A DNA stretch of 64,000 bases, from contig JAFSBX010000106.1 in assembly GCA_017437065.1 (NCBI GenBank), positions 22,193-86,192 of the forward strand. The letters are read 5' to 3'. Positions 14,850-51,966 of this stretch are shown piece by piece. The position numbers and the translations under genes were made by a program. The notes below the pieces were generated by a model. The model did not search any database, was not told the origin of the DNA, and saw only the letters and a program-made list of their open reading frames with translations. The first letter of the stretch is position 1; each line of letters begins with the position of its first letter. This DNA is from Lachnospiraceae bacterium (GTDB lineage: Bacteria; Bacillota; Clostridia; Lachnospirales; Lachnospiraceae).

Positions 14850-14979
14850 TCCTCCCATATTTACGCAGGAGGGGACAATCAATGTATAAATGTGACGTGT
14901 TTTTAGAAGGTATGTCAGTTAAATGGTTAATAGAAAATAAAATAGGGCAAATGCCTATTATAGTCACATTTATATACAT
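14850..14979 (-). promoter_or_regulatory. Expression platform of the thiT riboswitch
   Basis: Between the aptamer and thiT, reading the minus strand, there are three structures. First, arms of 15-17 bases (14963-14979 and 14882-14896) can form a long stem around the platform. Second, inside it, AATAGGC and GCCCTATT (14939-14957) form a terminator-like hairpin with a following T-rich run. Third, CCCCTCC and GGGAGG (14850-14875) form a hairpin that buries the ribosome site and precedes seven T. How they switch with TPP is not determined. Confidence 0.55.
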
Positions 14980-15062
14980 GCTTCCTTACGCCGGTATTAT
15001 CCGGTTCAAGTAGTGAGGGTCAGAATCGAAAGATTCATTCTCAGCAAAAGCTCCCCTAGCGT
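14979..15062 (-). ncRNA. TPP riboswitch (THI element)
   Basis: Read on the minus strand, the aptamer carries the conserved THI-box blocks in order: CTAGGGGAGC, GCTGAGA, GACCCT, then GAACCGGATAATACCGGCG and AAGGAAGC. It should bind thiamine pyrophosphate and turn down thiT when thiamine is plentiful. The 14843-15232 gene-free stretch is largely explained by this element, its expression platform and the divergent promoter region. Confidence 0.96.
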
Positions 15063-15232
15063 TTTTTATTTTTTTACATAATATACTTTTTATGAAAAAA
15101 AAAGTCAAGAGGAAAAATACATTTTGGCTTATTTTTTATGTAAGAATGCAAGAATAGACACTACCAAATTAAAGGGAAATATGGTAAGATGAGGTATAAG
15201 TGGGAGTTTGTATACAAAAGGCGGGTAAGAAT

Positions 15233-38567: not shown

Positions 38568-39788
38568 CTATTTATTGTTTTCCACTTCCTGCATTTTCAT
38601 TGCACGTACTTTACAGGAAAGACCGAACAGATTGATAAATCCTTCTGCATCATGGTGGTCATATAAATCACCTGTTGTAAAGGAAGCAATGCTTTCATTG
38701 TACAGAGAGTATGGAGAAGTTGTTCCGGCTTTGATGATGTTTCCTTTGTAAAGCTTGAATTTAACTTCACCTGTTACATACTGCTGTGTAGATTCGATAA
38801 ATGCCTGTACAGCTTCACGAAGTGGTGTAAACCATTTTCCTTCGTAAACGATCTGAGCAAGTTTGTTGCCCATATCTTTTTTTACTGCATATGTATCACG
38901 GTCTAAGATAAGTTCTTCTAACTGCTGGTGTGCTTCCATAAGGATAGTTCCGCCCGGTGTTTCATATACACCACGGGATTTCATACCAACAACACGGTTT
39001 TCAACAATATCTACAATACCGATACCATGTTTACCGCCAAGAACGTTTAATTCACGAATAATATCGGAAACTTTCATTTTTTTGCCGTTTACGCTTGTAG
39101 GTACACCTGCTTCAAAAGTCATAGTTACATATTCGCCTTCTTCAGGAGCTTTTTCAGGAGTTGTTCCTAATACTAATAAGTGGTCGAAGTTTGGCTCGTT
39201 TGCAGGATCTTCTAATTCTAAGCCTTCATGGCTGATGTGCCAAAGGTTACGATCACGGCTGTAGGAAGTATCTGCTGAGAACGGAAGGTCGATTCCGTGA
39301 GCTTTACAGTATTCGATTTCGGATTCACGGGAATCCATTGTCCATTTGTCATTTCTCCATGCAGCGATAATTTTTAATTCAGGAGCAAGTGCTTTGATAC
39401 CAAGTTCGAAACGAATCTGGTCATTTCCTTTACCTGTAGCACCGTGGCAGATAGCAGTAGCACCTTCTTTTTTTGCAATTTCAACAAGACGTTTTGCAAT
39501 AACAGGACGAGCCATGGATGTACCGAGAAGGTATTTGTTCTCGTAAATGGCATTCGCCTGTACACAAGGAACTACATATTCATCACAGAATTCATCGATA
39601 ACATCTTCAATGTATAATTTAGAAGCACCTGAGAATTTAGCTCTTTCTTCAAGACCATCAAGTTCTTCTGCCTGTCCGCAGTCGATGCAGACACAAATTA
39701 CTTCGTAATCAAAGTTTTCTTTTAACCATGGGATAATTGCTGTGGTATCCAAACCGCCGGAATACGCTAAAATTACTTTTTCTTTCAT
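38568..39788 (-). CDS. argG: Argininosuccinate synthase
   Basis: A 406-residue ATP-dependent enzyme joining citrulline and aspartate in arginine synthesis. The PP-loop is [11 protein letters not shown] (residues 6-16), with [13 protein letters not shown] near 113-125 and [15 protein letters not shown] near 173. The ATG at 39788 is preceded by TTGGAGG eight bases away. It is monocistronic, has a clear promoter and lies divergently from the arginine operon 11 kb away, with the accessory island between them. Confidence 0.97.
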
Positions 39789-39868
39789 TGTAAAATCCTC
39801 CAATTTGTTATGTGTTTAATATGTATATTTGGTATGGGAACAAGGTCCCTTATCAATGTCCTTCAAAC

Positions 39869-39905: not shown

Positions 39906-39996
39906 TATGCATATTTTAACAAATTATTATGCATAAAATGTATAAAATACAAAATGTACTTGCATATTATACAATACAGATGTATACTTATGCATA
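39906..39996. promoter_or_regulatory. Cluster of ARG-box-like palindromes upstream of argG
   Basis: TATGCATA occurs at 39906, 39928 and 39989, and TGTATACTTATGCA (39981-39994) fits the TGNAT-N4-ATNCA shape of ArgR half-sites. TGTATAAAATACA and TGCATATTATACA lie between. They sit just upstream of the argG promoter. Binding by ArgR is inferred and the AT-rich background weakens it. Confidence 0.35.
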
Positions 39997-40011
39997 AAAT
40001 AGGAGAAGACT

Positions 40012-40156
40012 TTGGGGAGGGGAAATGGTATTTCATCGGCGGACGCGCTTTCGCTCTATTCGGAACGCAGCGGACACGTAGGCTTGTAAAGGACACAAGC
40101 CAAGTGCCGGCGTTCCTCTAAGGTCCGCCGATGAAATACCATTTCCCCCCCTCCAA
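40012..40156. repeat. 145-bp inverted-repeat element, MITE-like or structured RNA
   Basis: The arms 40019-40044 and 40123-40148 are perfect reverse complements for 26 bases (ending in CATCGGCGGAC), with further imperfect pairing outward. The 78-base centre holds two more stems, GGAACGC/GCGTTCC and AGGCTTGT/ACAAGCC. It is clearly richer in GC than its surroundings, and no open reading frame fits. It stands at the left edge of the accessory island. Confidence 0.75.
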
Positions 40157-40339
40157 CGGAAGGTTTTCTAAGAGGTGTGGGAGAATGAGGCGACGAACGG
40201 GAGAGTGTGAAAATATGGGAGAAAGTGAAAATAGTAGAATTGCATAGTAAATATCAATATGTAATGTAATATATGGAGATGTTTGAAATTGAAGTTAGAG
40301 TGCTTAAGAAGCAGAAAACCTGATTGATTTCAAAAAAAC

Positions 40340-40490
40340 AGGTTGGTAGTCGGGATATATTAAGTGGAAAAAACCGACTAAAAAAGAGAAAAGCTGAGAA
40401 CGGTCGGGATGAGAAAGAGTGAAGGCACCGACTAAAAAAGAGAAAAGTCGGAAACGGTCGGGATGAGTAAACAGAAAAGTCCCGATTAAA
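40340..40490. repeat. Short direct repeats with a 54-base period
   Basis: Two copies of a unit starting ACCGACTAAAAAAGAGAAAA and ending GGTCGGGATGAG begin at 40373 and 40427. Partial copies with GTCGGGAT or GTCCCGAT lie on either side. CCGAC and GTCGG within each unit can form hairpins. The rest of 40157-40604 is AT-rich with no gene that I can support. Confidence 0.65.
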
Positions 40491-40604
40491 ATGAAAAAAT
40501 GTTGAAATAGTTGGAGTAATTAGCAAGCCACTCGATTTAATGAATGAAATAAAAAGAATAGTAGGGATATACAGAAATCAGAATCGGTTTAGGAGTGACA
40601 AACT

Positions 40605-41231
40605 ATGAATATAGTACCATATGCAAACGAAATTGATGAATATTTAAAAGAAGATGATGTGATTGATTATGGAAACGAAGCGATTGCACAATTGGCTGAT
40701 AAATTATTCCAAAAAGCAAATAGTGAGTTGGAGTTTATTGAAATAGCATATGAATTTGTCAGAGATAAAATTTCTCATTCGGCGGATATAAATGAGGATT
40801 TAATTACATGTTCTGCTTCAGAAGTTCTAAATGCCGGTCATGGAATTTGTTTTGCTAAATCCCACTTGCTGGCAGCGTTATTGCGTTACAAATCTGTTCC
40901 GACAGGATTTTGTTATCAAAAGCTTATTTTAGACGATGAAACAACACCTGTCTTAGTATATCATGGGCTAAATGGTGTCTATATTAAAGAATTCAAAAAG
41001 TGGATACGACTTGATGCAAGAGGGAATAAAGATGGTGTGAATGCACAATTTTCAATTGATACTGAACAACTTGCATTTCCGGTACGTCCGGAAATGGGCG
41101 AGGCAGATGGGGCTGTAGTGTATCCGAAACCTGATGTGAAGATAGTAGAGACATTAAGAAAAAGTAAGACGAGAACAAAACTGTGGGATAATCTGCCTAC
41201 GGAACTAAGCGTTATCAGCATTCAGAGTTAG
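40605..41231 (+). CDS. Transglutaminase-like cysteine peptidase-fold protein
   Basis: A 208-residue transglutaminase-superfamily protein. The catalytic cysteine is in GHGICFAKSHLLAALLR (residues 79-95), the histidine in VLVYHGLNGV (about 122) and the aspartate in WIRLDARGN (about 140), so the triad is complete. No signal peptide is seen. Bacterial relatives include peptidases and amidases; substrate unknown. It is the first gene of the accessory island. Confidence 0.85.
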   Translation: MNIVPYANEIDEYLKEDDVIDYGNEAIAQLADKLFQKANSELEFIEIAYEFVRDKISHSADINEDLITCSASEVLNAGHGICFAKSHLLAALLRYKSVPTGFCYQKLILDDETTPVLVYHGLNGVYIKEFKKWIRLDARGNKDGVNAQFSIDTEQLAFPVRPEMGEADGAVVYPKPDVKIVETLRKSKTRTKLWDNLPTELSVISIQS

Positions 41232-41312
41232 TTATATTTAGATAAATATTGAATTTGTTGAGGTAAGGGGTTATTTTAAGTTTATATACAGGATGAGTCA
41301 AAGGAGAAAAAA

Positions 41313-42002
41313 ATGAAAATCACTGTTATACATGGACAGAGCCACAAAGGCTCTACCTATAATATAGCAAAGCAACTTTGTGACAAACTCGGTGGAGAGG
41401 TTACGGAATTTTTTCTGCCGAAAGATTTTGCATGTTACTGTAAAGGTTGTACTGCTTGTTTTATCAGGGAGACGAGTTGTCCCGATTATGAAAAATTAAA
41501 GCCACTTACTGAAGCATTAGACAATGCTGATGTAATCATTCTTGCAAGTCCGGTGTATGTTATGCATGCTACAGGTGCAATGAAGTCGTTTCTTGATCAT
41601 TATGGGTACAGATATATGGTTCATCGTCCCGAAGAAAAAATGTTTTCGAAGCAGGCGGTTTGTATTTCGACAGCCGCAGGTGCAGGTATGCGCAGTACGA
41701 TAAAGGATATGGCTGACAGCACATTTTTCTGGGGCTGTGCTCGTACATATAAACTTGGTGTTGCGGTTATGGAAACAAGATGGGAAATGGTAAAGCCGAG
41801 AATAAAAAGTAAAATCGAAAAGAAAACAGCTTTGCTTGCAAAAAAGATTTTATCTCGTAAAGATAAGGTAAAACCAACTATAAAAACCAGAGTTTTTTTC
41901 GGTATTATGTCATTGGTGCAGAAAAATGGTTTTAATGAGGCGGATGTTAGTTACTGGAAGGCAAAGGGCTGGACAAATGGAAAGAAACCTTGGAAAAAAT
42001 GA
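41313..42002 (+). CDS. NAD(P)H-dependent FMN reductase-like flavoprotein
   Basis: A 229-residue flavodoxin-fold protein. The FMN phosphate loop is HGQSHKGSTYNIA (residues 7-19), then a CKGCTACFIRETSCPD cysteine cluster near 45-60 typical of iron-sulfur-type flavoproteins or redox-sensitive reductases, and ILASPVYVMHATGAMKSFLDH near 77-97. It probably reduces quinones or metals, or acts as an electron carrier. CAAAGGAG precedes the ATG. The motif GAATTTG lies 55 bases before the start. Confidence 0.85.
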   Translation: MKITVIHGQSHKGSTYNIAKQLCDKLGGEVTEFFLPKDFACYCKGCTACFIRETSCPDYEKLKPLTEALDNADVIILASPVYVMHATGAMKSFLDHYGYRYMVHRPEEKMFSKQAVCISTAAGAGMRSTIKDMADSTFFWGCARTYKLGVAVMETRWEMVKPRIKSKIEKKTALLAKKILSRKDKVKPTIKTRVFFGIMSLVQKNGFNEADVSYWKAKGWTNGKKPWKK

Positions 42003-42228
42003 TTACAGGTATTTTAGCAAAAGATACATATAGTATTTGGGGTGAAATAGTTAATATAGTTGCATATAAAAAAGGTATATATAAGGAATTTAAAAAAGTA
42101 TATTATAGGATAGAGCACTTTTATAAAATTTGTGTGATTGTGTTTGAATTGGTGTAGAAGCTTTCAAGTATTATAATAAAATATATTCAGCTAAGCATTG
42201 AAGCACAGGAGAATTTGGGAGGTTTTAA

Positions 42229-43011
42229 ATGGTATTATATTTTTCTGCAACAGGTAACACGGAGTTTATAGCTAAGGAACTCGCTAAGAGGACAAATGAT
42301 GAATGTATAAATCTGCTTGAACGCATAAAAAATCAAGATTTCTCTCCGATTCATTCGGAAACACCGTTTGTAATCTGCGCGCCCGTTTATGTTTGTGAAA
42401 TACCGCGTTTTATGACTAAATATCTTAAAAAACTGCCTCTTTCCGGTAGTAAAGACGTTTATTTTATTCTTACAAGTGGCGGATATTGTGGTCCGTCAGG
42501 TAGGCTTCTGAAAAAGCTCTTTAAGGCAAAGAAAATGATTTGTCATGGACACGCTGAGTTTAAGATGCCTAGAAACTACGTTGCAAGTGATTCTTATCCT
42601 ATGTTGGAAAAGGATGAGGTGGAAGAAAGGATTTTGAACTCATATAAGCAGTTAGAACAAGTTGCGGCAAATATTCTTGCCGGAAATAAATTGACGGCAA
42701 GACACGTTTTTCTTTTTGAAACTATGATTACTGTTCCGTTTAACCCCATCTGGTGCAAGTATAAGTTCACGGCAAAAGATTTCTATGTAGAAGATTCTTG
42801 TGTGGGCTGCGGTAAATGTGAAAAACTGTGTCCTCTCAATAACATAAAGATTGTAGATAAAAAACCCATTTGGGAGAAGCAGTGTACGCATTGTATGGCA
42901 TGTATTGGTAATTGCCCTGTCAATGCTATTCAATATGGGGATATAACCAAGAGTAAAGAGCCTTATAATTTCGGTAAATATAATTACATAGTTAAAAAAT
43001 TAGAGGAATAA
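42229..43011 (+). CDS. EFR1-type flavodoxin-ferredoxin fusion
   Basis: A 260-residue protein: an N-terminal flavodoxin-like domain (YFSATGNTEFIAKEL) and a C-terminal ferredoxin domain with two [4Fe-4S] motifs, CVGCGKCEKLCP (about 187-198) and CTHCMACIGNCP (about 216-227). Such EFR1 family proteins are presumed electron-transfer proteins. GGGAGG supports the start, and GAATTTG lies 12 bases before the ATG. The 226-base gap before it holds nothing I can identify. Confidence 0.9.
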   Translation: MVLYFSATGNTEFIAKELAKRTNDECINLLERIKNQDFSPIHSETPFVICAPVYVCEIPRFMTKYLKKLPLSGSKDVYFILTSGGYCGPSGRLLKKLFKAKKMICHGHAEFKMPRNYVASDSYPMLEKDEVEERILNSYKQLEQVAANILAGNKLTARHVFLFETMITVPFNPIWCKYKFTAKDFYVEDSCVGCGKCEKLCPLNNIKIVDKKPIWEKQCTHCMACIGNCPVNAIQYGDITKSKEPYNFGKYNYIVKKLEE

Positions 43012-43063
43012 GCAAATATTCGCCAATAGATGATGGAAAAGTAATAAGCTCATGATTGTTTGA

Positions 43064-43663
43064 ATGAAAATAATATTAATAGAAAATGTTTCGAAAAGCG
43101 AGTTAACTGAAATCAAAAAAATGATTGGTGAAGCATTTATTACGAATGAGCTTTTCCATGAGTTTGGAGATATAAACAACAGAAAAGAGCTTGTAATGAA
43201 GTATATGGATATATATACAGATTACGTGTATGAATCAAAAGCACTTTATGGAACAGAGAATCATAAGGGTGTAGTTGGTTTTATACATAGTAAAAATGCA
43301 CCGGTTTATCCGCAACTAAAGATGTTAATTCGACTGTTAATGGTTATTCCATTTAAGACATTGAAAAATTACATATCGCATGTTAAGCAAATTGCAGACT
43401 CTAATAAGCAGTATGCTACAAAACCACATATTGATATTTTATTTGTTTGTGTGGATAAAGAATATCAGGGAAAAGGCTATGCAAGATATTTGGTAGAAAC
43501 TGCAAAGAGGTATGCAGAAAAAGAGAGTGTGCCATTACTGTTTGATACAGATATGGAGCGGTACGCACAGATATATCAACATTACGGATGCGAATTATAT
43601 AATCAGGTATTGGCTAGTAATGGTGTCACACGATACAACTTAGTGTGGAAGATAGATAAGTAG
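43064..43663 (+). CDS. GNAT-family N-acetyltransferase
   Basis: A 199-residue acetyltransferase. The acetyl-CoA-binding motif A is DILFVCVDKEYQGKGYARYLVETAKRYA in two contiguous parts near residues 125-152. The substrate is unknown. It stands 52 bases after the EFR1 gene on the same strand; its ribosome site is weak. It is part of the accessory island. Confidence 0.88.
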   Translation: MKIILIENVSKSELTEIKKMIGEAFITNELFHEFGDINNRKELVMKYMDIYTDYVYESKALYGTENHKGVVGFIHSKNAPVYPQLKMLIRLLMVIPFKTLKNYISHVKQIADSNKQYATKPHIDILFVCVDKEYQGKGYARYLVETAKRYAEKESVPLLFDTDMERYAQIYQHYGCELYNQVLASNGVTRYNLVWKIDK

Positions 43664-43690
43664 AATTTGAAGCTGGAGGAGTGATGTAAA

Positions 43691-44455
43691 GTGAATTATA
43701 AAGCGAGTATTGAGCAAACAAAACAAGGTTTTGAAGAAAGCTTTCGAGTTGGAGCGTACTATAATAAGCAAACAAGGGATGATATGCATTTGGAATTAAT
43801 TTTAGGGTACATACAAGTGGAATCAGGAATGAGAATTCTTGACTTAGGAACTGGTTCAGGTTATTTAGCGTTTCCATTTGCAGATAAGTATAAACAGGTG
43901 GAAGTAGTAGGATTAGATATAGTAGAAAAGACTTTAGAGGAAAATCAGAGAAAGGCTGAATTAACAGGCATTAACAATTTACGTTTTGTGAGCTACGATG
44001 GAATGGATTTTCCGTTTGATGATAATTCATTTGATATAGTTATTACAAGGTATGCATTGCATCACTTTCCTGCAATTAATGATACATTTCGTGAAATAAG
44101 TAGGGTGCTGAAGAAGAATGGAGTATTCTTTTTATCTGACCCAACTCCAAATGATGATGATGTAGAACGCTTTGTAGACGAATATATGCAGATGAAAAAA
44201 GATGGACATATAAAGTTTTACACAAAAGACGAGTGGAAAAAAATGGGATGTTCGGTTGATTTGATGTATATTGACGGTTTTCAGACTATTATTCGGTTTC
44301 CAAGAAAAAAAGAAACTGCTTTGGAGTTTGATGATATCATTAGTAGACACAATGAAGCTGTTATTAGGGGATATGAAGTTGAAATTATAGAGGATGAAAT
44401 TTGGATTTCAGAAAAAGTAAATAATCTTATATTTAGAAATAATAAGCAATTGTAG
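43691..44455 (+). CDS. Class I SAM-dependent methyltransferase
   Basis: A 254-residue small-molecule methyltransferase of the UbiE/Methyltransf_11 type. Motif I is ILDLGTGSGYLAF (residues 48-60), the acidic ribose contact is in VVGLDIVEKT and motif post-I/II is FDIVITRYALHHF near 112-124. The GTG start follows GGAGG at a long distance. GAATTTG lies 22 bases before the start. The target is unknown. Confidence 0.88.
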   Translation: MNYKASIEQTKQGFEESFRVGAYYNKQTRDDMHLELILGYIQVESGMRILDLGTGSGYLAFPFADKYKQVEVVGLDIVEKTLEENQRKAELTGINNLRFVSYDGMDFPFDDNSFDIVITRYALHHFPAINDTFREISRVLKKNGVFFLSDPTPNDDDVERFVDEYMQMKKDGHIKFYTKDEWKKMGCSVDLMYIDGFQTIIRFPRKKETALEFDDIISRHNEAVIRGYEVEIIEDEIWISEKVNNLIFRNNKQL

Positions 44456-44489
44456 ATTAGATGTTATCCATAAAAATTATAAAGAGAGA

Positions 44490-44545
44490 CAAATTTAGGT
44501 TTTGTGAAGAATTGAAAGCACACAAGAATTTGAAGTTTACGCATA
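44490..44545 (+). repeat. Decayed copy of the 47860-47950 gene fragment
   Basis: The stretch 44504-44541 matches 47909-47946 at about 32 of 36 aligned bases, including TTGAAAGCAC and GAATTTGAAGTTTACGCA. An upstream TTTAGGTTTTGTGAAG resembles the earlier part of that fragment with an internal deletion. It is a leftover sequence lying before the hydrolase gene, not part of it. Confidence 0.6.
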
Positions 44546-44568
44546 GTTTTGTATGTTCAGGAGTTAAT

Positions 44569-45525
44569 ATGAAGAAGGCAAAGAAGATTATGAAAGTTAT
44601 GATTATTTTATTGGTTGCATTTATCGTTGTTTTGGTAGCAATCTATATAAACCATAGGCTTCAATTGAATAAAGAGGAAGAGTTAAGAACTCCACTTGGA
44701 AATCTTGTTGAAGTTAATGGTCATCAAATGAGTGTTTATGTAGAGGGGAACGGTGACAAGACAATCGTTTTTATGTCGGGGGGAGGAACTTGTTCTCCGA
44801 TTTTAGATTTTAAATCTTTATATTCAACATTAACGGATAACTACAAAATTGTTGTGGTAGAGAAGTTTGGTTATGGATTTAGTGATGTTGTTGATAAGGA
44901 GAGAAATATTGATTTGATATTAGAAGATACTAGAACAGCATTGAAAAAAGCAGATATCGAGGGACCTTATGTGTTATGTCCACATTCAATGTCTGGGATA
45001 GAGGCATTATATTGGGCACAACAATATCCAGAAGAAATAGAAGCAATTATTGGACTTGATATGGCAGTTCCGAAGGCGTATAAGGATTACAAGATTAATA
45101 TGTCGATGCTTAAAATTAGTCAGTTTGCGGCAAGGATTGGAATTACTAGAATTTTACCAGGCATTTCAGAGAGTGATGCTATTAAATATGGAATGCTTAC
45201 CGATACTGAGAAAGAGATATACAGAGCTATATTTTATGAAAAAACTGCTACAACAACAATGTTGAATGAAGTTAATTGTATTAAAGAGAATGCTGAAATA
45301 GTTCAAAATAATGGAGTGCCACAAGTTCCTATGCTCCTGTTTGTTTCAAATGGAATTGGAACAGGCTGGAATGAAGGTGAATGGCGTGAGTATCAAAACA
45401 GTTATTTAGAAAATGTTGAAAATGGCAAACTCATAGATTTGGATTGTCCGCATTACATTCACGATTACGAATATAATACAATCAGTGAAGAAATAAGAGT
45501 ATTTTTGACAGAGATATCTAATTAG
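44569..45525 (+). CDS. Membrane-anchored alpha/beta hydrolase
   Basis: A 318-residue alpha/beta-hydrolase with an N-terminal transmembrane anchor (residues 6-30) and a fold starting at about residue 45. The oxyanion region is FMSGGGTC and the nucleophile elbow is PHSMSGIEAL (Ser near residue 127); the final histidine is in DCPHYIHDYE. I place the start at 44569 because CAGGAG lies five bases upstream and the preceding 108 bases are a repeated remnant. Substrate unknown. Confidence 0.85.
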   Translation: MKKAKKIMKVMIILLVAFIVVLVAIYINHRLQLNKEEELRTPLGNLVEVNGHQMSVYVEGNGDKTIVFMSGGGTCSPILDFKSLYSTLTDNYKIVVVEKFGYGFSDVVDKERNIDLILEDTRTALKKADIEGPYVLCPHSMSGIEALYWAQQYPEEIEAIIGLDMAVPKAYKDYKINMSMLKISQFAARIGITRILPGISESDAIKYGMLTDTEKEIYRAIFYEKTATTTMLNEVNCIKENAEIVQNNGVPQVPMLLFVSNGIGTGWNEGEWREYQNSYLENVENGKLIDLDCPHYIHDYEYNTISEEIRVFLTEISN

Positions 45526-45612
45526 TACAAGGGAAAGACAATTTTCAGTTTAATGAAGCGATGAAGTCCCATTGTTGAGATTGGGAAACTTGAATTTGGA
45601 GGATTGCAAACG

Positions 45613-46152
45613 ATGAACAATATAGATAGAAAAGTAAATGCTGACCGCATATTATATGAATTTGGGTTATTGAAAAGGCTTGAAATGATTGGAGAACCTC
45701 ATATAATTGGCAGTTATAGAATGAATATGATGGCATGGAATGATTTGGATATTGACATTGAAAATAACGCTATGTCATTAGATAGGATGTACGAATTATC
45801 AGCATTTATTATGAGCACATTTAAACCTGTATGGTATGAAGCGAAAGAAGAAATAAATGCAGAGGGGAAAAAGGTTTGGTTTCATGGCTTTGAAACGATG
45901 ATTACGGGAGAATTGTGGAATATCGATTTATGGTTTTTTGATAAGGAAACTATATCAAATGCAGAAAGATATTGTGATACTATTACAGATAGTGCAAACC
46001 AAACACAAAAAGATATTATTGTAAGTATTAAAAGTGAACTAATATCAAGGGGTTTATATTCTTTTGAACAATATAAGAGTATTGACGTATATAAGGCTGT
46101 TTTAGAAAATAATGTGAAAAATTTAGACGAATTTTTGAGGTTGTTTGAGTAG
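45613..46152 (+). CDS. Nucleotidyltransferase-fold protein (MNT/AadE-like)
   Basis: A 179-residue protein with the minimal nucleotidyltransferase signature GSYRMNMMAWNDLDIDIE near residues 34-51, where GS and the DxD carboxylates bind metal and NTP. A third acidic residue is in WNIDLWFFD near 105. Relatives include aminoglycoside nucleotidyltransferases and MNT antitoxins; neither can be asserted. GGAGG precedes the ATG by ten bases and GAATTTG by 14. Confidence 0.75.
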   Translation: MNNIDRKVNADRILYEFGLLKRLEMIGEPHIIGSYRMNMMAWNDLDIDIENNAMSLDRMYELSAFIMSTFKPVWYEAKEEINAEGKKVWFHGFETMITGELWNIDLWFFDKETISNAERYCDTITDSANQTQKDIIVSIKSELISRGLYSFEQYKSIDVYKAVLENNVKNLDEFLRLFE

Positions 46153-46216
46153 ATAAATCTCAATTTGACAAGATGGTAAATTTGAAAGTATCGTGTTCAT
46201 AATTGAAGGTGATTTA

Positions 46217-46673
46217 TGCAAAATGTAATAAATAATCAAGCATTAGATTATGTAAAAAAATATTTGAAAATGATTATAGTGGGCATGACTATTTTCATAC
46301 TTTACGTGTTTATAAAATGGCAACTCATATTGCTATGAAAGAAAACGCGAATTTGGAAATTGTACAACTTGCAGCATTGTTGCATGATGTTGATGATATT
46401 AAGTTATCTCCTAAAACATATATGCAAAAAGATAATGCACGAAGCTTTTTAATGACGAATAATATTGATGAAATGACGATTCATACAATCTGTCAAATTA
46501 TAAATGAGTTTTCATATGCAGGAAAAGATTCAGTTATACCAAAAACATTAGAGGGAAAATGTGTGCAGGATGCAGACAGATTAGATGCAATTGGGGCTAT
46601 AGGAATAGCGAGGGCTTTTTCATACGGAGGAAATCATAATAGTTTTGGAGATTCAAATGATAATAGCAAATAA
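46217..46673 (+). pseudogene. HD-domain phosphohydrolase, frameshifted and 3'-truncated
   Basis: The first 13 codons (MQNVINNQALDYV) are in one frame. After seven A at 46254-46260 the HD-domain reading FENDYSGHDYFHTLRVYK continues in another frame, followed by LLHDVDDIKL and DADRLDAIGAIGIARAF. One A more or two fewer would restore the frame. The domain also ends early, just after AFSYGG, and runs into the start of the next gene. It is either decayed or, less likely, rescued by slippage on the A-tract. Confidence 0.75.
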
Positions 46674-47046
46674 AAAAACGAATGATACTAATAACAGGCA
46701 GAAATGTGATAAGGACAGTGCAAAAAGAAAGGTTGTTATATCAATAAATCAAGTCATATCCATTGCAAATCAAATTTTTGTGATAAGTTTTTTAGGGGTA
46801 TTTGCGATTTGGACAAAACCTTTTATGACAGATTACTATCAAAAACTGGCAAACAGCCATTATGATTCTGTTCAGTGGTTTCAAATGGGAACTGTGTTTT
46901 TAGTGGCACTGTTTTTTGCGATTCATAGCTTTGTAAATAAGAGATTCTTTGTCGGAATATTAACAATTATCATCGCAATATGGTCTTTTTATTGGGCGTT
47001 TTTAGCTGGTCCTTTCTACTGTCAATTGTGTACTTATGGTGGATAG
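46657..47046 (+). CDS. Hypothetical membrane protein
   Basis: A 129-residue protein with a basic, Asn/Lys-rich N-terminus of about 30 residues and three predicted membrane helices (about 35-55, 75-92 and 100-120). It ends in CQLCTYGG. TTTTGGAG six bases before the ATG at 46657 gives a good ribosome site. The start overlaps the end of the broken HD gene, which suggests a recombination junction here. Family not recognised. Confidence 0.7.
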   Translation: MIIANKKTNDTNNRQKCDKDSAKRKVVISINQVISIANQIFVISFLGVFAIWTKPFMTDYYQKLANSHYDSVQWFQMGTVFLVALFFAIHSFVNKRFFVGILTIIIAIWSFYWAFLAGPFYCQLCTYGG

Positions 47047-47132
47047 AAAAGAAGTCAAAATTTGAATTTGTAAGGATTTTTAAATTAAAATATAATCGAC
47101 TAAAGAATTAAGATTTGAGAGGTATCGAAAAA

Positions 47133-47795
47133 ATGGGAAAGTATGAAGATATGAAAAAACTATTTGATTCACATGAAGATAAAGAAAAGGCTGTATCTAT
47201 GGCAAATTACATGAAGAATCAATTTGATTTTTATGGAATAGCAACACCTGAAAGAAAAGAATTGTATAAAGAGTTTATTAAGTCAGAAAAGAAATCAAAA
47301 AAGATAGATTGGAGTTTTTTAGATTGTTGTTATACAGATAATCATAGAGAACTTCAATATCTTGTGTATGATTATCTTCTTGCGTTAAAGCAATTTTTAA
47401 CTTTTGATGATATATCTAAAATCAAAGAGTATATTTTATCTAAATCTTGGTGGGACACGATTGATTTTTTATGTAAAGTTATTGGTGATATAGGTTTGCG
47501 AGATATAAGGGTAAAAGAATTAATGCTTGAATGGTCATTGAATGACAACATCTGGATTAAAAGAACTTCAATACAGCATCAATTGGCATATAAAGGTAAA
47601 ACAGATACAGAACTTTTATCCGAAATAATCATCAACTGTATGGGCACAGATGAATTTTTTATAAACAAAGCTATAGGATGGGCATTAAGAGAATATTCAA
47701 AAACAAATGCGGTATGGGTAAGTGAATTTATAGATAGGCATAAAGATGAAATGAGTAATTTAAGCATTAAAGAAGGAAGTAAATATATAAAGTAA
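47133..47795 (+). CDS. AlkD-like DNA alkylation repair protein
   Basis: A 220-residue all-helical HEAT-like-repeat protein of the AlkD DNA glycosylase family, which removes alkylated purines. YMKNQFDFYGIATPERK (residues 24-40), the central SKSWWDTIDFL (about 106-116), WIKRTSIQHQLAYKG and FINKAIGWALREYSKTN (about 180-196) are typical, including the tryptophan and aspartate positions of the DNA-binding concave face. GAGAGG precedes the ATG at 47133. Confidence 0.9.
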   Translation: MGKYEDMKKLFDSHEDKEKAVSMANYMKNQFDFYGIATPERKELYKEFIKSEKKSKKIDWSFLDCCYTDNHRELQYLVYDYLLALKQFLTFDDISKIKEYILSKSWWDTIDFLCKVIGDIGLRDIRVKELMLEWSLNDNIWIKRTSIQHQLAYKGKTDTELLSEIIINCMGTDEFFINKAIGWALREYSKTNAVWVSEFIDRHKDEMSNLSIKEGSKYIK

Positions 47796-47842
47796 ACACA
47801 CCATAATGCATTGATAATTATGTTGAGCTGATTTGATAGTGA

Positions 47843-48004
47843 GTTATCTCACAGTTAGACCGCAAGTTCGGATTTGTAGAGAACGGAAACTTTCAGTCTT
47901 ACAGAGAGATTGAAAGCACGCATGAATTTGAAGTTTACGCACACTTAATTATGAGTATTCAGAATGGCGGTATTGAGAATATGGTACGTTTTATTCGAAA
48001 ATAA
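47843..48004 (+). pseudogene. C-terminal gene fragment between island genes
   Basis: An open stretch of 53 codons without a start reads ...LDRKFGFVENGNFQ, then SYREIESTHEFEVYAHL and ends MVRFIRK. KFGFVENG suggests the tail of a GNAT acetyltransferase, but that is not certain. Part of it recurs before the hydrolase gene at 44504-44541. It contains both island motifs, CTTTCAG at 47890 and GAATTTG at 47924. It fills most of the 273-base gap before the YhcG gene. Confidence 0.6.
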
Positions 48005-48068
48005 TATTATAATAAATTATGATGGAACTTGAACCAATAAGGAATAAAAATGGAGAAAGGTTGATTTT

Positions 48069-49109
48069 ATGGGTGAAGTTATTATAAATCCGGAATATTC
48101 AGAATGGATAAAAAGCATTAGCTTGAACTTTAAACAATGTCAGATTAAGGCAGCCTCCAAGGTAAATGAAGAGATGCTTTTGTTTTATTGGAATCTTGGG
48201 AAAGATATATCAAGAATGAATCAATTGGCGTTATATGGTTCGGATTTTTATAGTAGAATCAGTAAAGATCTTAGAGCAGAATTACCGGATGTAAAATCTT
48301 TTTCAGTTACAAATTTGAGGTACATGTGTTGGTTCTTCGAATTGTATTTTGAAAATCCACAACAACTTGTTGTGGATTGCATAGATGAAACTATTTTTAA
48401 AATTCCATGGGGACATCATATTCAAATAATAGGTAAATGTAGAAAAGATGTTAACAAGGCACTTTTTTATGTGCACAAAACTTTAGAGAATAATTGGTCG
48501 CGAGCAGTTTTATTAAACTTCCTGGACACAGATTTGTATGAGCGTCAAGGAAAAGCTATTAGTAACTTTTCAAAAGTTTTACCTGATGTAAAAAGTGATC
48601 TCGCGCAACAGATGACAAAGGATCCTTATAATTTTGATTTTTTAGCACTTCGAGAGGGATATGATGAAAAGGAACTTAAAGATGCCTTAATGGCAGATGT
48701 TCAGAATTTCCTTCTAGAGTTAGGAACAGGATTTGCATTTGTTGGAAGAGAGTATCGGCTTGAAGTGGGACAGACAGAACAGTTTTTAGATATGCTTTTC
48801 TATAATATTCAAAATCAATGTTATGTGGTAGTAGAAATTAAAACAAGGAATTTCGAGCCTGGTGATATGGGGCAGTTGGGAACATATGTTGCTGCTGTGG
48901 ATGGAATCTTGAAAAGAAAAAATGAAAATCCTACAGTTGGATTGCTCATTTGTAAGACGAAAGATAATGTGCTTGCCAAATATGCAGTAAACACAATGAA
49001 TGTCCCTATTGGTATTTCTGAATACGATATGAATAACTTTGTTGTAGAGCATTTCAAGAGTTCTATGCCAACTATTGCAGAGATAGAGAATGAATTAAGT
49101 GATAAATAA
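48069..49109 (+). CDS. YhcG/DUF1016-family PD-(D/E)XK nuclease
   Basis: A 346-residue protein with the N-terminal DUF1016 domain (residues 1-165; LLFYWNLGKDIS, TNLRYMCWFFELY) and a C-terminal PD-(D/E)XK nuclease domain. The active site is visible as FLDMLFYN followed by VVVEIKTRNFEPGDMGQLGTYV near residues 238-275. Homologues are frequent in islands and beside restriction-modification or other defence genes; the substrate is not known. GGAGAAAGG precedes the ATG. Confidence 0.9.
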   Translation: MGEVIINPEYSEWIKSISLNFKQCQIKAASKVNEEMLLFYWNLGKDISRMNQLALYGSDFYSRISKDLRAELPDVKSFSVTNLRYMCWFFELYFENPQQLVVDCIDETIFKIPWGHHIQIIGKCRKDVNKALFYVHKTLENNWSRAVLLNFLDTDLYERQGKAISNFSKVLPDVKSDLAQQMTKDPYNFDFLALREGYDEKELKDALMADVQNFLLELGTGFAFVGREYRLEVGQTEQFLDMLFYNIQNQCYVVVEIKTRNFEPGDMGQLGTYVAAVDGILKRKNENPTVGLLICKTKDNVLAKYAVNTMNVPIGISEYDMNNFVVEHFKSSMPTIAEIENELSDK

Positions 49110-49147
49110 AGCTCGCGAAGCTTAGAATTTGACGAGGTATTGATAGA

Positions 49148-49582
49148 ATGGTAGAAGTAAAATTTTATGACAATGTCGCAGATGAATTTTTGAAGTTTGC
49201 AGTGATAATATCCAAAACAGATAACAAGTGGGTATTCTGTAAACACAAAGAAAGAGAGACTTATGAAATGCCAGGAGGTCACAGAGAACCTGGAGAAAGT
49301 ATTTTAGAAACAGCTAAAAGAGAATTACAAGAAGAAACAGGAGCAGTTGATTTTAGAATTGAACCAATATGTGTGTATTCTGTTAAAGGAAAGACACGAG
49401 TAAATGAAAATATTGATGATGAAACTTTCGGAATGTTATTTATTGCAGACATTAACTCATTTGAGGAATTACATAGTGAGATTGAGAAGATATTGATTTC
49501 AGATAAGTTAGTTGAAAATTGGACATATCCTTTAATTCAACCTATATTGATTGAAGAAGCAAAAAAAAGAGGCTTTATATAA
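49148..49582 (+). CDS. NUDIX hydrolase
   Basis: A 144-residue Nudix enzyme. The Nudix box begins GGHREPGESILETAKRE, followed by LQEETG (about residues 43-65), and all catalytic glutamates are present. It hydrolyses a nucleoside diphosphate linked to another group; the exact substrate is unknown. GACGAGG supports the start, and GAATTTG lies 16 bases before the ATG. Confidence 0.9.
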   Translation: MVEVKFYDNVADEFLKFAVIISKTDNKWVFCKHKERETYEMPGGHREPGESILETAKRELQEETGAVDFRIEPICVYSVKGKTRVNENIDDETFGMLFIADINSFEELHSEIEKILISDKLVENWTYPLIQPILIEEAKKRGFI

Positions 49583-49603
49583 ATAGACAAGCAACGGAAA
49601 CTT

Positions 49604-49723
49604 TCAGTTTGTTGTTGGCTTGTATGGCTTTGGTAATGGTTGCCATGCAATTACACGAGCATTAAAATGTGGATTGTGATTTGCATTTCTAAATTCTGCA
49701 AAAGTAATAGTATTCCAATTTAG
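49604..49723 (-). pseudogene. C-terminal fragment of a phage-type protein (DUF551-like tail)
   Basis: On the minus strand an open frame without a start reads LNWNTITFAEFRNANHN, then VIAWQPLPKPYKPTTN and a stop. The WQPLPxPY ending is common in small prophage proteins of the DUF551 kind. It is the only minus-strand coding trace in the island and lies between the NUDIX gene and the next gene. The stop codon overlaps a copy of the CTTTCAG motif. Confidence 0.5.
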
Positions 49724-49745
49724 TTAATGACTTAGGAGAAGTGAA

Positions 49746-50186
49746 ATGAAGAAATTAAAATTAATATTTGGAGTAATTATTGTGGCATTACTTGGATTCA
49801 TGATTTCTATTCCAATAGTAAATGATAATACAGCAAATAGGACAGCTAAAAGTGTGAAAGAGATAGAATTACCAAATGATACTGAGTACATTGAATCATT
49901 TTCAAAAGCCGGAAAACTAGTAGGAAATGGTAATGGTATGCAATATTTGGGAGGTATACTTATTAAGAGTAACTTGTCGTTGGAAGAGTTGCAAGCACAT
50001 TATTCTAAATATGCGAAGAGTGAATGGGAATATATAGTTGAAAAACAGTCAGATAAAGAAGTCCGGGTTGTTGAGCATGGGTCGGTGTTATTGAAGTCGG
50101 ATATAAATGATGACAATTATTATATTGTTTATTCTTGGGGGGATGAGTATTCTATTTATAGTCAATTGGATTTGAGAGGACATTGA
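49746..50186 (+). CDS. Hypothetical single-pass membrane protein
   Basis: A 146-residue protein with an N-terminal membrane anchor or uncleaved signal (residues 4-24) and an extracellular domain of about 120 residues rich in beta-type segments (YLGGILIKSNLSLEELQ, EVRVVEHGSVLLKSD, YYIVYSWGDEYSIYSQ). There is no lipobox. TTAGGAGAAG gives a good ribosome site. Family not recognised. Confidence 0.7.
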   Translation: MKKLKLIFGVIIVALLGFMISIPIVNDNTANRTAKSVKEIELPNDTEYIESFSKAGKLVGNGNGMQYLGGILIKSNLSLEELQAHYSKYAKSEWEYIVEKQSDKEVRVVEHGSVLLKSDINDDNYYIVYSWGDEYSIYSQLDLRGH

Positions 50187-50348
50187 TGATGATATGAATG
50201 CAATGTAATTGATATCTTATCTATATACGTCCCTTTTTATCTTATTTATGAGACGAGATACATTTTTTGTAAATGGATAAATTCTGTTGTAAAACAATAC
50301 TTTTTGCAAGGTTATGGTGTGAATTTGAATTTGTAGAGGTAAGCAACT

Positions 50349-50813
50349 ATGGCATTGAGTTATAAAAAAGCAACACTTACTGATTTGGAAATTCTAACGG
50401 AAACAAGAATAGAAGTGTTGCGTGCGGCTAATCGATTAAGTGATGATGTTGATATGTCCGAAGTAAAAAAACAATCTCTTGAGTATTATCAAAATGCATT
50501 AAGGAATAATACCCATTTAGCCTATTTGATTTTTGATGAAGAAATATTTGTTGGAACTGGTGGTATTAGTTATTTTCAAGTAATGCCAACTTATCATAAT
50601 CCGACGGGAAAAAAAGCTTATATTATGAATATGTATACTAATCCCGGTTATAGAAGGCAAGGGATTGCCTTTAAAACATTGGATTTATTAGTTACAGATG
50701 CAAGAGAAAAAGGAATAACTGCGATTTCGCTTGAGGCGACAGATATGGGAAGGCCTTTATATGAAAAATATGGTTTCAGGAAAATGAATGATGAAATGGA
50801 GTTATCTAATTAA
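50349..50813 (+). CDS. GNAT-family N-acetyltransferase
   Basis: A 154-residue acetyltransferase. AYIMNMYTNPGYRRQGIAFKT near residues 97-117, split around the Q/R-x-x-G-x-A loop, binds acetyl-CoA; LYEKYGFRKMNDEMEL is the C-terminal beta-strand region. TAGAGGTAA precedes the ATG and two overlapping GAATTTG copies lie 16-28 bases before it. It is the last gene of the accessory island. The 162 bases before it hold no gene I can support. Confidence 0.9.
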   Translation: MALSYKKATLTDLEILTETRIEVLRAANRLSDDVDMSEVKKQSLEYYQNALRNNTHLAYLIFDEEIFVGTGGISYFQVMPTYHNPTGKKAYIMNMYTNPGYRRQGIAFKTLDLLVTDAREKGITAISLEATDMGRPLYEKYGFRKMNDEMELSN

Positions 50814-50914
50814 AAAACTTTCAATTGTGGAGATAAAATGAAAGAGAGAGTTATGAAACGAACAAATATAAAAAGAAGAATGATGTAATAAACAACAAAG
50901 CACATAATTAGTAC

Positions 50915-51018: not shown

Positions 51019-51966
51019 ATGAAAACAAAAATTTTTATCGATGGTAGTGAAGGAACAACAGGTTTAAGAATATATGAGCGTTTTGAAGGCAGAGATGATA
51101 TTGAACTGCTTCAGATTTCCAGCGAGCTTAGAAAAGATGTTGCTGAAAGAAAAAGACTGATTAATGAGTCAGACATTACATTTCTTTGTCTGCCGGATGC
51201 GGCGGCAAGAGAATCGGTGAGTCTGGTGGAGAATGAAAATGTGAGAATTATTGATACCTCCACAGCGCATCGTACAGAAAGCGGCTGGGCATATGGGTTC
51301 CCGGAATTATCTGCTGCGCACAGAGATGCAATTAAAAATGGAAAAAGAATTGCAATACCGGGATGTCATGCAACAGGATTTATGTCTGTGGTATATCCGT
51401 TGGTTGCAGGAGGAATTTTGCCGGCAGATTATCCGGTTGCAGCATTTTCACTGACAGGCTATAGTGGTGGCGGAAAGAAAATGATTGCAGAGTATGAGGC
51501 AGAAGGCAGAAATAAAGATATTGATGCACCAAGAGAGTATGCACTCACACAGCAGCATAAACATTTAAAGGAAATGAAGGCAATCACAGGTCTTGCAAGA
51601 GAGCCGTTATTTTCCCCGATCGTAGCGGATTATTACAGTGGTATGGTTGTTTCCGTGCCTCTTTATACAGAATATTTAAAAAGCCATAAAAATCCGAAAG
51701 AGTTGACAGAGTATTTTGCACAATATTATCAAGGCGAAAAATTCGTTCAGGTAGTGGAAAACGGAAATGAAGATTTATACGGTGGCATGCTTGCAGGAAA
51801 TACGTTAAGCGGCTGGGACGGACTTAAGATTTACATAACAGGAAATGAAGAAAGAGTTGTAGTTTCTGCACAGTTTGATAACCTTGGAAAAGGTGCTTCC
51901 GGTGCAGCAGTGCAGTGCCTGAATATTTTGATGGGCTGTGAAGAAAATAAAGGTTTAGTTTTATAG
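51019..51966 (+). CDS. argC: N-acetyl-gamma-glutamyl-phosphate reductase, type 2
   Basis: A 315-residue NADPH-dependent enzyme of arginine synthesis that reduces N-acetylglutamyl phosphate to the semialdehyde. FIDGSEGTTGLRIYER is the nucleotide-binding start and IPGCHATGF (about residues 112-120) holds the catalytic cysteine. The length is that of the shorter ArgC2 type. AAAGGAAGG precedes the ATG. It leads the operon argC-GNAT-argJ-argB-argD. Confidence 0.95.
   Translation: MKTKIFIDGSEGTTGLRIYERFEGRDDIELLQISSELRKDVAERKRLINESDITFLCLPDAAARESVSLVENENVRIIDTSTAHRTESGWAYGFPELSAAHRDAIKNGKRIAIPGCHATGFMSVVYPLVAGGILPADYPVAAFSLTGYSGGGKKMIAEYEAEGRNKDIDAPREYALTQQHKHLKEMKAITGLAREPLFSPIVADYYSGMVVSVPLYTEYLKSHKNPKELTEYFAQYYQGEKFVQVVENGNEDLYGGMLAGNTLSGWDGLKIYITGNEERVVVSAQFDNLGKGASGAAVQCLNILMGCEENKGLVL

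Follow-up and report, generated by a model that had tools for sequence, protein, structure and literature searches.

The DNA analysed here is a 64,000-nt stretch (the window) of the genome of a Lachnospiraceae bacterium (contig JAFSBX010000106.1 of assembly GCA_017437065.1, positions 22,193 to 86,192). The subject of this work is a block of small genes located in it between argG (38568–39803, minus strand) and argC (51019–51966, plus strand), together with a short element found at the junctions of these genes and a tyrosine recombinase, IntL, encoded near such elements in other genomes. The interval is filled by 14 plus-strand open reading frames (ORFs) with stand-alone functions located between positions 40605 and 50813. 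The original prediction, made from the window sequence, spoke of about fourteen unrelated small genes on the same strand, and this observation is confirmed. It also supposed that argG and argC had once been neighbours, and proposed a comparison of the interval across related genomes. In the two congeners compared, G001 and G002 (G, C, and L numbers denote genomes, contigs, and loci), argG and argC lie side by side in divergent orientation; neither genome has the island, and array genes have no match in the argG–argC stretch of either. In the alignment to G001, homology on the left stops near 39996 and is picked up on the right near 50896, which defines an insertion of ~10.9 kb (~39997–50895) in place of ~55 bp. 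The G+C content of the island is 0.331, versus 0.384 for the remaining window.

The array starts with genes for a transglutaminase-like protein (40605–41231, PF01841; 82% DNA match in G132), an NADPH-dependent FMN reductase (41313–42002, PF03358; an 88% copy lies on G001 contig C79, which also carries an IntL fragment), a flavodoxin/4Fe-4S protein (42229–43011, PF00037 and others), the first of two GNAT proteins (43064–43663, PF00583), and an S-adenosylmethionine-dependent methyltransferase (43691–44455, PF13847; 78% single-gene match in G132). These are followed by an alpha/beta hydrolase gene (44569–45525), whose start codon was placed after a junction element with the frame checked, and whose PF12146 match, obtained on a longer ORF, is under the Pfam cut-off, and by a gene which the original prediction labeled nucleotidyltransferase-like (45613–46152; weak DUF7249 match only). 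The next gene, coding for an HD-domain protein (46216–46673, PF01966 on 46317–46673), is damaged: because of a late start, the ORF encodes 118 amino acids, compared with 213–214 in L107 and L108, and the match to an 84% DNA relative in G366 stops near 46645. A small membrane protein ORF from the ORF list (46645–47046, weak PF12832), an AlkD-like DNA alkylation repair gene (47133–47795, PF08713), a YhcG-like nuclease gene (48069–49109, PF06250/PF17761), a NUDIX hydrolase gene (49148–49582, PF00293; 77–78% single-gene matches in G393 and G283), a gene of unknown function (49746–50186, no Pfam match at E 0.01), and the last GNAT gene (50349–50813, PF00583; 87% single-gene match in G097) complete the array. 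The G097 relative of the last GNAT gene adjoins ORFs resembling a RelBE pair. Family matches are thus weak or absent for four of the 14 products (the hydrolase, the nucleotidyltransferase-like protein, the membrane protein, and the unknown one). The YhcG-like nuclease matches the candidate phage-defence family PDC-S02 of PADLOC.

Two repeats were observed at the left side of the island. Positions 40011–40156, at its very edge, contain a strong inverted repeat with 73–89% copies on contigs C65, C64, C60, and C114 of the same genome, and positions 40347–40514 consist of a 54-nt tandem repeat unit with many 69–76% relatives scattered on other contigs (C40, C60, C66, C117, C10, C56, and more).

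Inspection of the gene junctions revealed an element of ~60 nt, nAAaTTTCAGtCTTntGgaGAGaTTGAAAGCAnnngaagATTTGAAtTT. Part of it, GAATTTGNNGAGGTA, has only three exact matches in the entire 3.9-Mb genome, all at junctions of the window array (41251, 49125, and 50327). When up to one mismatch was allowed, 24 matches were found compared with 10 for a control motif read backwards, and weight was therefore placed on the exact matches. The fuller element is visible at gene junctions on G001 contig C44 and on contigs C83 and C57 of the window's own genome. GAATTTGNNGAGGTA was also tried as a family-wide marker and rejected: exact matches are present in 91 of 397 family genomes and, as judged by eye, no two of them outside the window's genome lie within 60 kb of each other on one contig. 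The element common to the family is the full site, not the GAATTTGNNGAGGTA half-motif.

Two sequence-only models of the site, R1 (7 sites) and R2 (16 sites), were both partly trained on window sites, and an independent model was therefore built from 49 sites, spread over 33 loci, of genomes other than the window's and G001. In the window, this model recovered the best-preserved junction site (47882–47947; match at 47888–47939, 52.5 bits, E 6.1e-14) and the site at 44485–44547 (match at 44499–44541, 25.0 bits, E 2.2e-5), while the best E value in 20 block-shuffled windows was 0.37. Both stretches had originally been taken for gene fragments; since they match the family-wide junction site, we read them as sites and not as GNAT remnants. 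A probable degenerate site at 45534–45604, which scores 37 bits with R1, a model trained on it, was not recovered by the independent model. At other junctions, only half-sites are seen. Right halves are located at 41251–41265 (GAATTTGTTGAGGTA, one of the three exact motif matches), 42211–42222 (GAATTTG followed by GAGG, from a regular-expression scan), 43663–43679 (same scan, letters checked), 47064–47077 (GAATTTG at 47064), 49125–49139 (exact motif, coinciding with an exchange breakpoint described below), and 50321–50341 (exact motif at 50327). Left halves are located at 49593–49609 (AACGGAAACTTTCAGTT) and, at the end of the array, 50814–50830 (AAAACTTTCAATTGTGG), both from the scan with letters checked.

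The general layout of the site is nAAaTTTCAG, a middle part that may form a hairpin, and ATTTGAAtTT; 53 of 67 sites contain TTTGAA[TGA]TT or a near form. The middle part contains an inverted repeat, most commonly CTTTCAGTCT / AGATTGAAAG. In an alignment of 75 distinct sites, whose relatedness can inflate such statistics, 78.2% of cells in the inner hairpin pair, versus 74.6% after shuffling (a value reached by 0 of 500 shuffles), covariation is 0.102 versus 0.073 (0 of 500), and double changes are found in 19 cells versus 9.8 (1 of 500). Sliding of the pairing partner reduces both pairing and covariation, and swaps of right halves among 67 sites weaken pairing (P 0.00005). These statistics suggest that the site may fold. 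A purely structural definition of the site was tried and failed, since folding energies of eight single sites did not clearly surpass those of shuffled sequences. A group II intron (RF02005, RF00029; with a maturase gene) located within L262:1–2000 splits a site in its loop, and a related maturase fragment was noticed at a site in L181.

The sites are distributed widely in the family. With R2, 12 candidates being scored per genome, the number of family genomes with a match, out of 397, is 103 at E ≤ 0.02, 47 at E ≤ 0.001, and 30 at E ≤ 1e-5; three genomes (G000, G001, and G213) had supplied training sites. In a phylum sample of 393 genomes, which takes in some of the same family, seven genomes had matches at E ≤ 0.001: the window's own genome and six with one match each (20.8–23.1 bits). 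Series of sites on the same strand are present on several contigs, for example G132:C61 (six listed) and G372:C5 (four), mostly with one small gene between successive sites. When 53 sites, two of them identical, were placed relative to crude ORF calls, 35 were intergenic and flanked by same-strand genes, six had a same-strand gene downstream only, four upstream only, and two neither; altogether, 41 were intergenic with a same-strand gene downstream, and six lay inside a called ORF.

A DNA search with the array (two candidates scored per genome) produced matches in 129 of the 397 family genomes; the genome or contig that holds the best relative mostly differs from one array gene to the next. 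At 19 of 21 other loci compared, every match longer than 200 bp is confined to one array gene; the exceptions are two operon-like loci, L098 and L121. A comparison of the 3′ end of the YhcG-like gene and the following junction with G001 contig C44 revealed 96% identity (225/235) up to GAATTTGA, after which the two loci carry different genes. In addition, 176 loci were compared all against all. Fifty-nine homologous stretches of at least 200 bp reach one of 60 sites, and 57 of these end at the site or within 130 bp of it, while two, which form one reciprocal pair, cross it; the 57 are not independent, since 27 are comparisons of one IntL–toxin–antitoxin unit (see below) with another, three are due to the group II intron, and some pairs are counted both ways. 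Near-identical cassettes (92–99%) of different genera begin and end at sites. L226 and L184 are 93.2% identical over 839 bp, from the upstream site to 1 nt past TTTGAATTT of the downstream site; similar stretches are shared by L230 and L362 (99.2% over 527 bp), L253 and L235 (99.1% over 352 bp), and L235 and L110 (92.2% over 604 bp). With identities this high, the ends of the stretches are not due to decay. The finding of single genes in other genera and neighbourhoods with exchange boundaries at a conserved site supports the view, already taken in the original prediction, that the array may have been built by recombination in an integron-like manner by an undescribed mechanism.

A candidate enzyme was reached through recombinase genes located near sites. 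The reference copy of IntL (L262:4367–5338, 323 amino acids) contains PF00589 and PF13495 domains. Thirteen relatives, from a scan of named genomes that gave the best 80 of 439 IntL relatives, are 92–100% identical to IntL by best segment, and the next one is 68% identical. The 13 come from Roseburia hominis, R. porci, R. inulinivorans, R. faecis, Tyzzerella, Eubacterium, Agathobacter, and other metagenome-assembled genomes; the one from R. faecis (L287) is interrupted by two stops. Complete IntL is found in Roseburia and other Lachnospiraceae. In a 30-row tree, 10 IntL rows are separated from 20 rows of sister recombinases by a 100/100 branch with a long stem. The original prediction had noted that no tyrosine recombinase was visible, which holds for the array itself; elsewhere in the genome, fragments of IntL are present on contigs C83 (87%), C57 (91%), and C97 (84%). 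Among plasmids, 12 records contain IntL relatives with 67–70% DNA identity over part of the query; among phages, 15 records do, 14 of them below 60% and one, an unannotated 5.2-kb faecal scaffold, carrying a broken IntL at 94%.

IntL loci are associated with sites. R2 matches at E ≤ 0.1 were found in 10 of 13 IntL loci (L282–L284, L286–L291, and L293), versus one weak match in 40 sister loci (Fisher p 1.5e-7); the search covered sister loci L294–L333, with 28 further ones, L335–L361 among them, lying outside it. In L286, L288, and L293 R2 matches nothing but the IntL unit's own right end, and without these loci the fraction is 7 of 13 (p 8e-5); when L282 and L283, whose contigs had led to IntL, are also left out, it is 5 of 11 (p 0.001). 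The faecal scaffold L362 gave no site match. A wider recombinase family composed of IntL and its sisters (E ≤ 1e-40) was considered as the partner of the sites and abandoned, the link at the level of genomes being weak. The link between recombinase and site rests on IntL, not on the wider family. IS91-like elements with an Xer-type gene near sites (G001 C10 and C66) were likewise rejected as a mobiliser: among the loci then compared, no others had them apart from one short overlapping locus. IS91-like transposase genes paired with an Xer-type recombinase gene were later also noticed near sites or IntL in L181, L183, L284, and L334, and similar genes were seen in L273. L142:4771–7683 contains three overlapping tandem tyrosine recombinase genes with IS66-like genes as neighbours, and a cassette site is present on the same contig. 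Many sister recombinase genes lie beside genes that, by eye, resemble hsdS; L294–L333 appear to be phase-variable type I restriction loci, and at several of them a small gene nearby encodes a TVYHGG-like motif.

In IntL loci with a readable 3′ side, IntL is mostly followed by a toxin–antitoxin pair in the same orientation. The pair is Phd–Doc in L282, L283, and L334 (by family match, Phd being under the Pfam cut-off) and RelBE-like, as named by eye, in others, with one kind in L284, L286, L287, L288, L291, and L292, another in L285 and L293, and a third in L289; no clear pair was seen in L290. In 14 sequences compared, the unit starts near TTTCAGTAAT(A/G)CG, most end with TTTGAA(T/G)TT, and the sequence outside is unrelated. 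In L282, L283, L284, L286, L287, L288, L110, and L226, similar sequence continues after the toxin–antitoxin pair up to TTTGAA(T/G)TT and is followed by unrelated cassettes. By comparison, therefore, a primary site appears to adjoin the recombinase.

Besides the main subjects, a thiamine pyrophosphate (TPP) riboswitch was observed in the window at 14966–15067 on the minus strand.

Taken together, the comparisons make it probable that the block between argG and argC is a worn array of single-gene cassettes from a separate integron-like system of Lachnospiraceae, which is now without its recombinase. A cassette would consist of a ribosome-binding site, one small gene, and a ~60-nt recombination site after the stop codon. 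As sequence comparison suggests, exchange would occur at the site's 3′ end, at about TTTGAA(T/G)TT, such that a cassette could join behind any site in one orientation. IntL, whose catalysis at the sites we infer, would cut and join them, inserting free cassettes behind the primary (attI-like) site or internal ones, and the toxin–antitoxin pair may retain the platform in the genome. The window array would have been built by this route and then lost, or become separated from, its recombinase, leaving mostly half-sites. Several observations weigh against this interpretation. The window lacks IntL, and the search of the window's genome gave fragments of it but no complete copy. No site is seen at the junction between the flavodoxin/4Fe-4S gene and the first GNAT gene, no R2 match was found in three of the 13 IntL loci (L285, L292, and L334), and the usual right end after the toxin gene was not seen in L285 and L292. 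The wider recombinase family is not clearly commoner in genomes with a site at E ≤ 1e-5 (6 of 30) than overall (63 of 394), although contigs frequently end in a gene of this family. As to folding, the number of pairs with double changes was reached by 137 of 500 shuffles and that of further pair types by 39 of 500, the proposed outer stem shows no covariation, right-half swaps among 36 sites with variant left arms have a weak effect (P 0.046), and the eight single sites do not fold clearly better than their shuffled versions (best z −1.44). Finally, the right ends of solo sites match those of IntL units, as would also be expected of mobile elements with internal deletions.

The last point is the basis of the main rival explanation, which ranks as such because solo sites resemble two ends of the IntL unit joined together. 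The sites may be internally deleted copies of an IntL–toxin–antitoxin element, similar to miniature inverted-repeat transposable elements (MITEs), that insert between genes, the neighbouring genes being bystanders of ordinary transfer. The nearly fixed ends of the IntL unit do match both halves of solo sites, and two kinds of right half, GCACGCG..TTATTTGAATTT and AACAGAAGATTTGAAGTT, are matched too. Yet insertion between genes accounts poorly for single genes of 92–99% identity that are common to different genera and have their breakpoints at sites, or for arrays whose gene junctions carry several like-oriented sites, and we consider this explanation unlikely. RecA-type recombination between repeated ~60-bp spacers could also shuffle genes with no dedicated enzyme; the sites are indeed repeats common to donor and recipient, and many window junctions are half-sites. 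That the sites are short, diverged, and tied to one recombinase clade, with several breakpoints at one site end, renders such a process improbable.

An ordinary operon or a genomic island of co-transferred metabolic genes would have some precedent, since relatives of the HD, NUDIX, transglutaminase, and GNAT genes occur together, partly fused, on the window genome's own contig C74 and in G303 (L121). The C74 run (L098:9485–17875) is operon-like, with NUDIX–phosphotransferase and transglutaminase–GNAT look-alike fusions that are relatives of array genes, and a similar run is present in L121; none of the motifs tried was found at the junctions of the C74 locus. Against a common origin of this kind stands the match to one array gene only at 19 of the 21 other loci, and we hold the explanation to be very improbable. 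Least credible of all is a classical integron, or a cluster of attC sites lacking integrase (CALIN), of known kind. The anatomy of the array, with one-gene cassettes, a site that may form a hairpin, and a group II intron in a site, speaks for it, but the attC core pair RYYYAAC/GTTRRRY is complete in 0 of 67 sites (GTTRRRY alone is present in one), in keeping with the original prediction, which had seen no such pair and had missed the junction site, and IntL scores 66 bits with the integron integrase model TIGR02249, whose cut-off is 265. With PRK15417 the score is 36.6 against a cut-off of 435; the sole model passed is NF040815 (234.2 versus 220), for XerA, whose description also names integron integrase. 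Because IntL falls under the integron integrase cut-off and the core pair is absent from the 67 sites, we call the cassette system integron-like, of separate recombinase ancestry.

We lean slightly towards a broader view, in which this system is a second origin of integron-style gene capture: a Lachnospiraceae recombinase may have split from hsdS invertases, gained a folded site and a toxin–antitoxin stabiliser, and come to move single genes among gut genera. Even without a second origin, a separate cassette system would account for the gathering and swapping of small, unrelated enzyme genes in this dominant gut family and offer a second case for the study of integron evolution; it predicts a testable recombinase, site, and breakpoint. 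Integrons are rare in Firmicutes: PMC9024848 names a single complete integron of this group (Limnochorda pilosa), besides a few CALINs, with Firmicutes being 22% of genomes in the data set. In a literature search that left out most subscription journals and all bioRxiv preprints, no title or abstract opening among the matches listed describes such arrays in Lachnospiraceae or Roseburia.

The system has much in common with integrons: a tyrosine recombinase, a primary site beside it, single-gene cassettes in one orientation (in keeping with most, not all, of the placed sites), one site per cassette, sites that may form a hairpin, exchange near the 3′ end of the site, as deduced by comparison from the 57 of 59 stretches, and single cassettes found across genera. 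It differs in that IntL groups with recombinases located beside hsdS-like genes, scores below the IntI cut-off, is encoded in the direction of the cassettes, and in most cases comes with a toxin–antitoxin pair, in that the sites have no attC core pair, and in its Lachnospiraceae host. The window array resembles a CALIN, being a set of sites without a recombinase, but these sites are not attC by core motif. The nearest relatives of IntL, up to 68% identical, are tyrosine recombinases of apparent phase-variable type I restriction (hsdS) loci, from which it is set apart by the well-supported branch and by the near absence of sites at the latter (one weak match in 40). With MITEs, the sites share their shortness and ends that match a larger, possibly autonomous unit; unlike MITEs, the sites described here bound single genes that appear to be passed one by one between genera.

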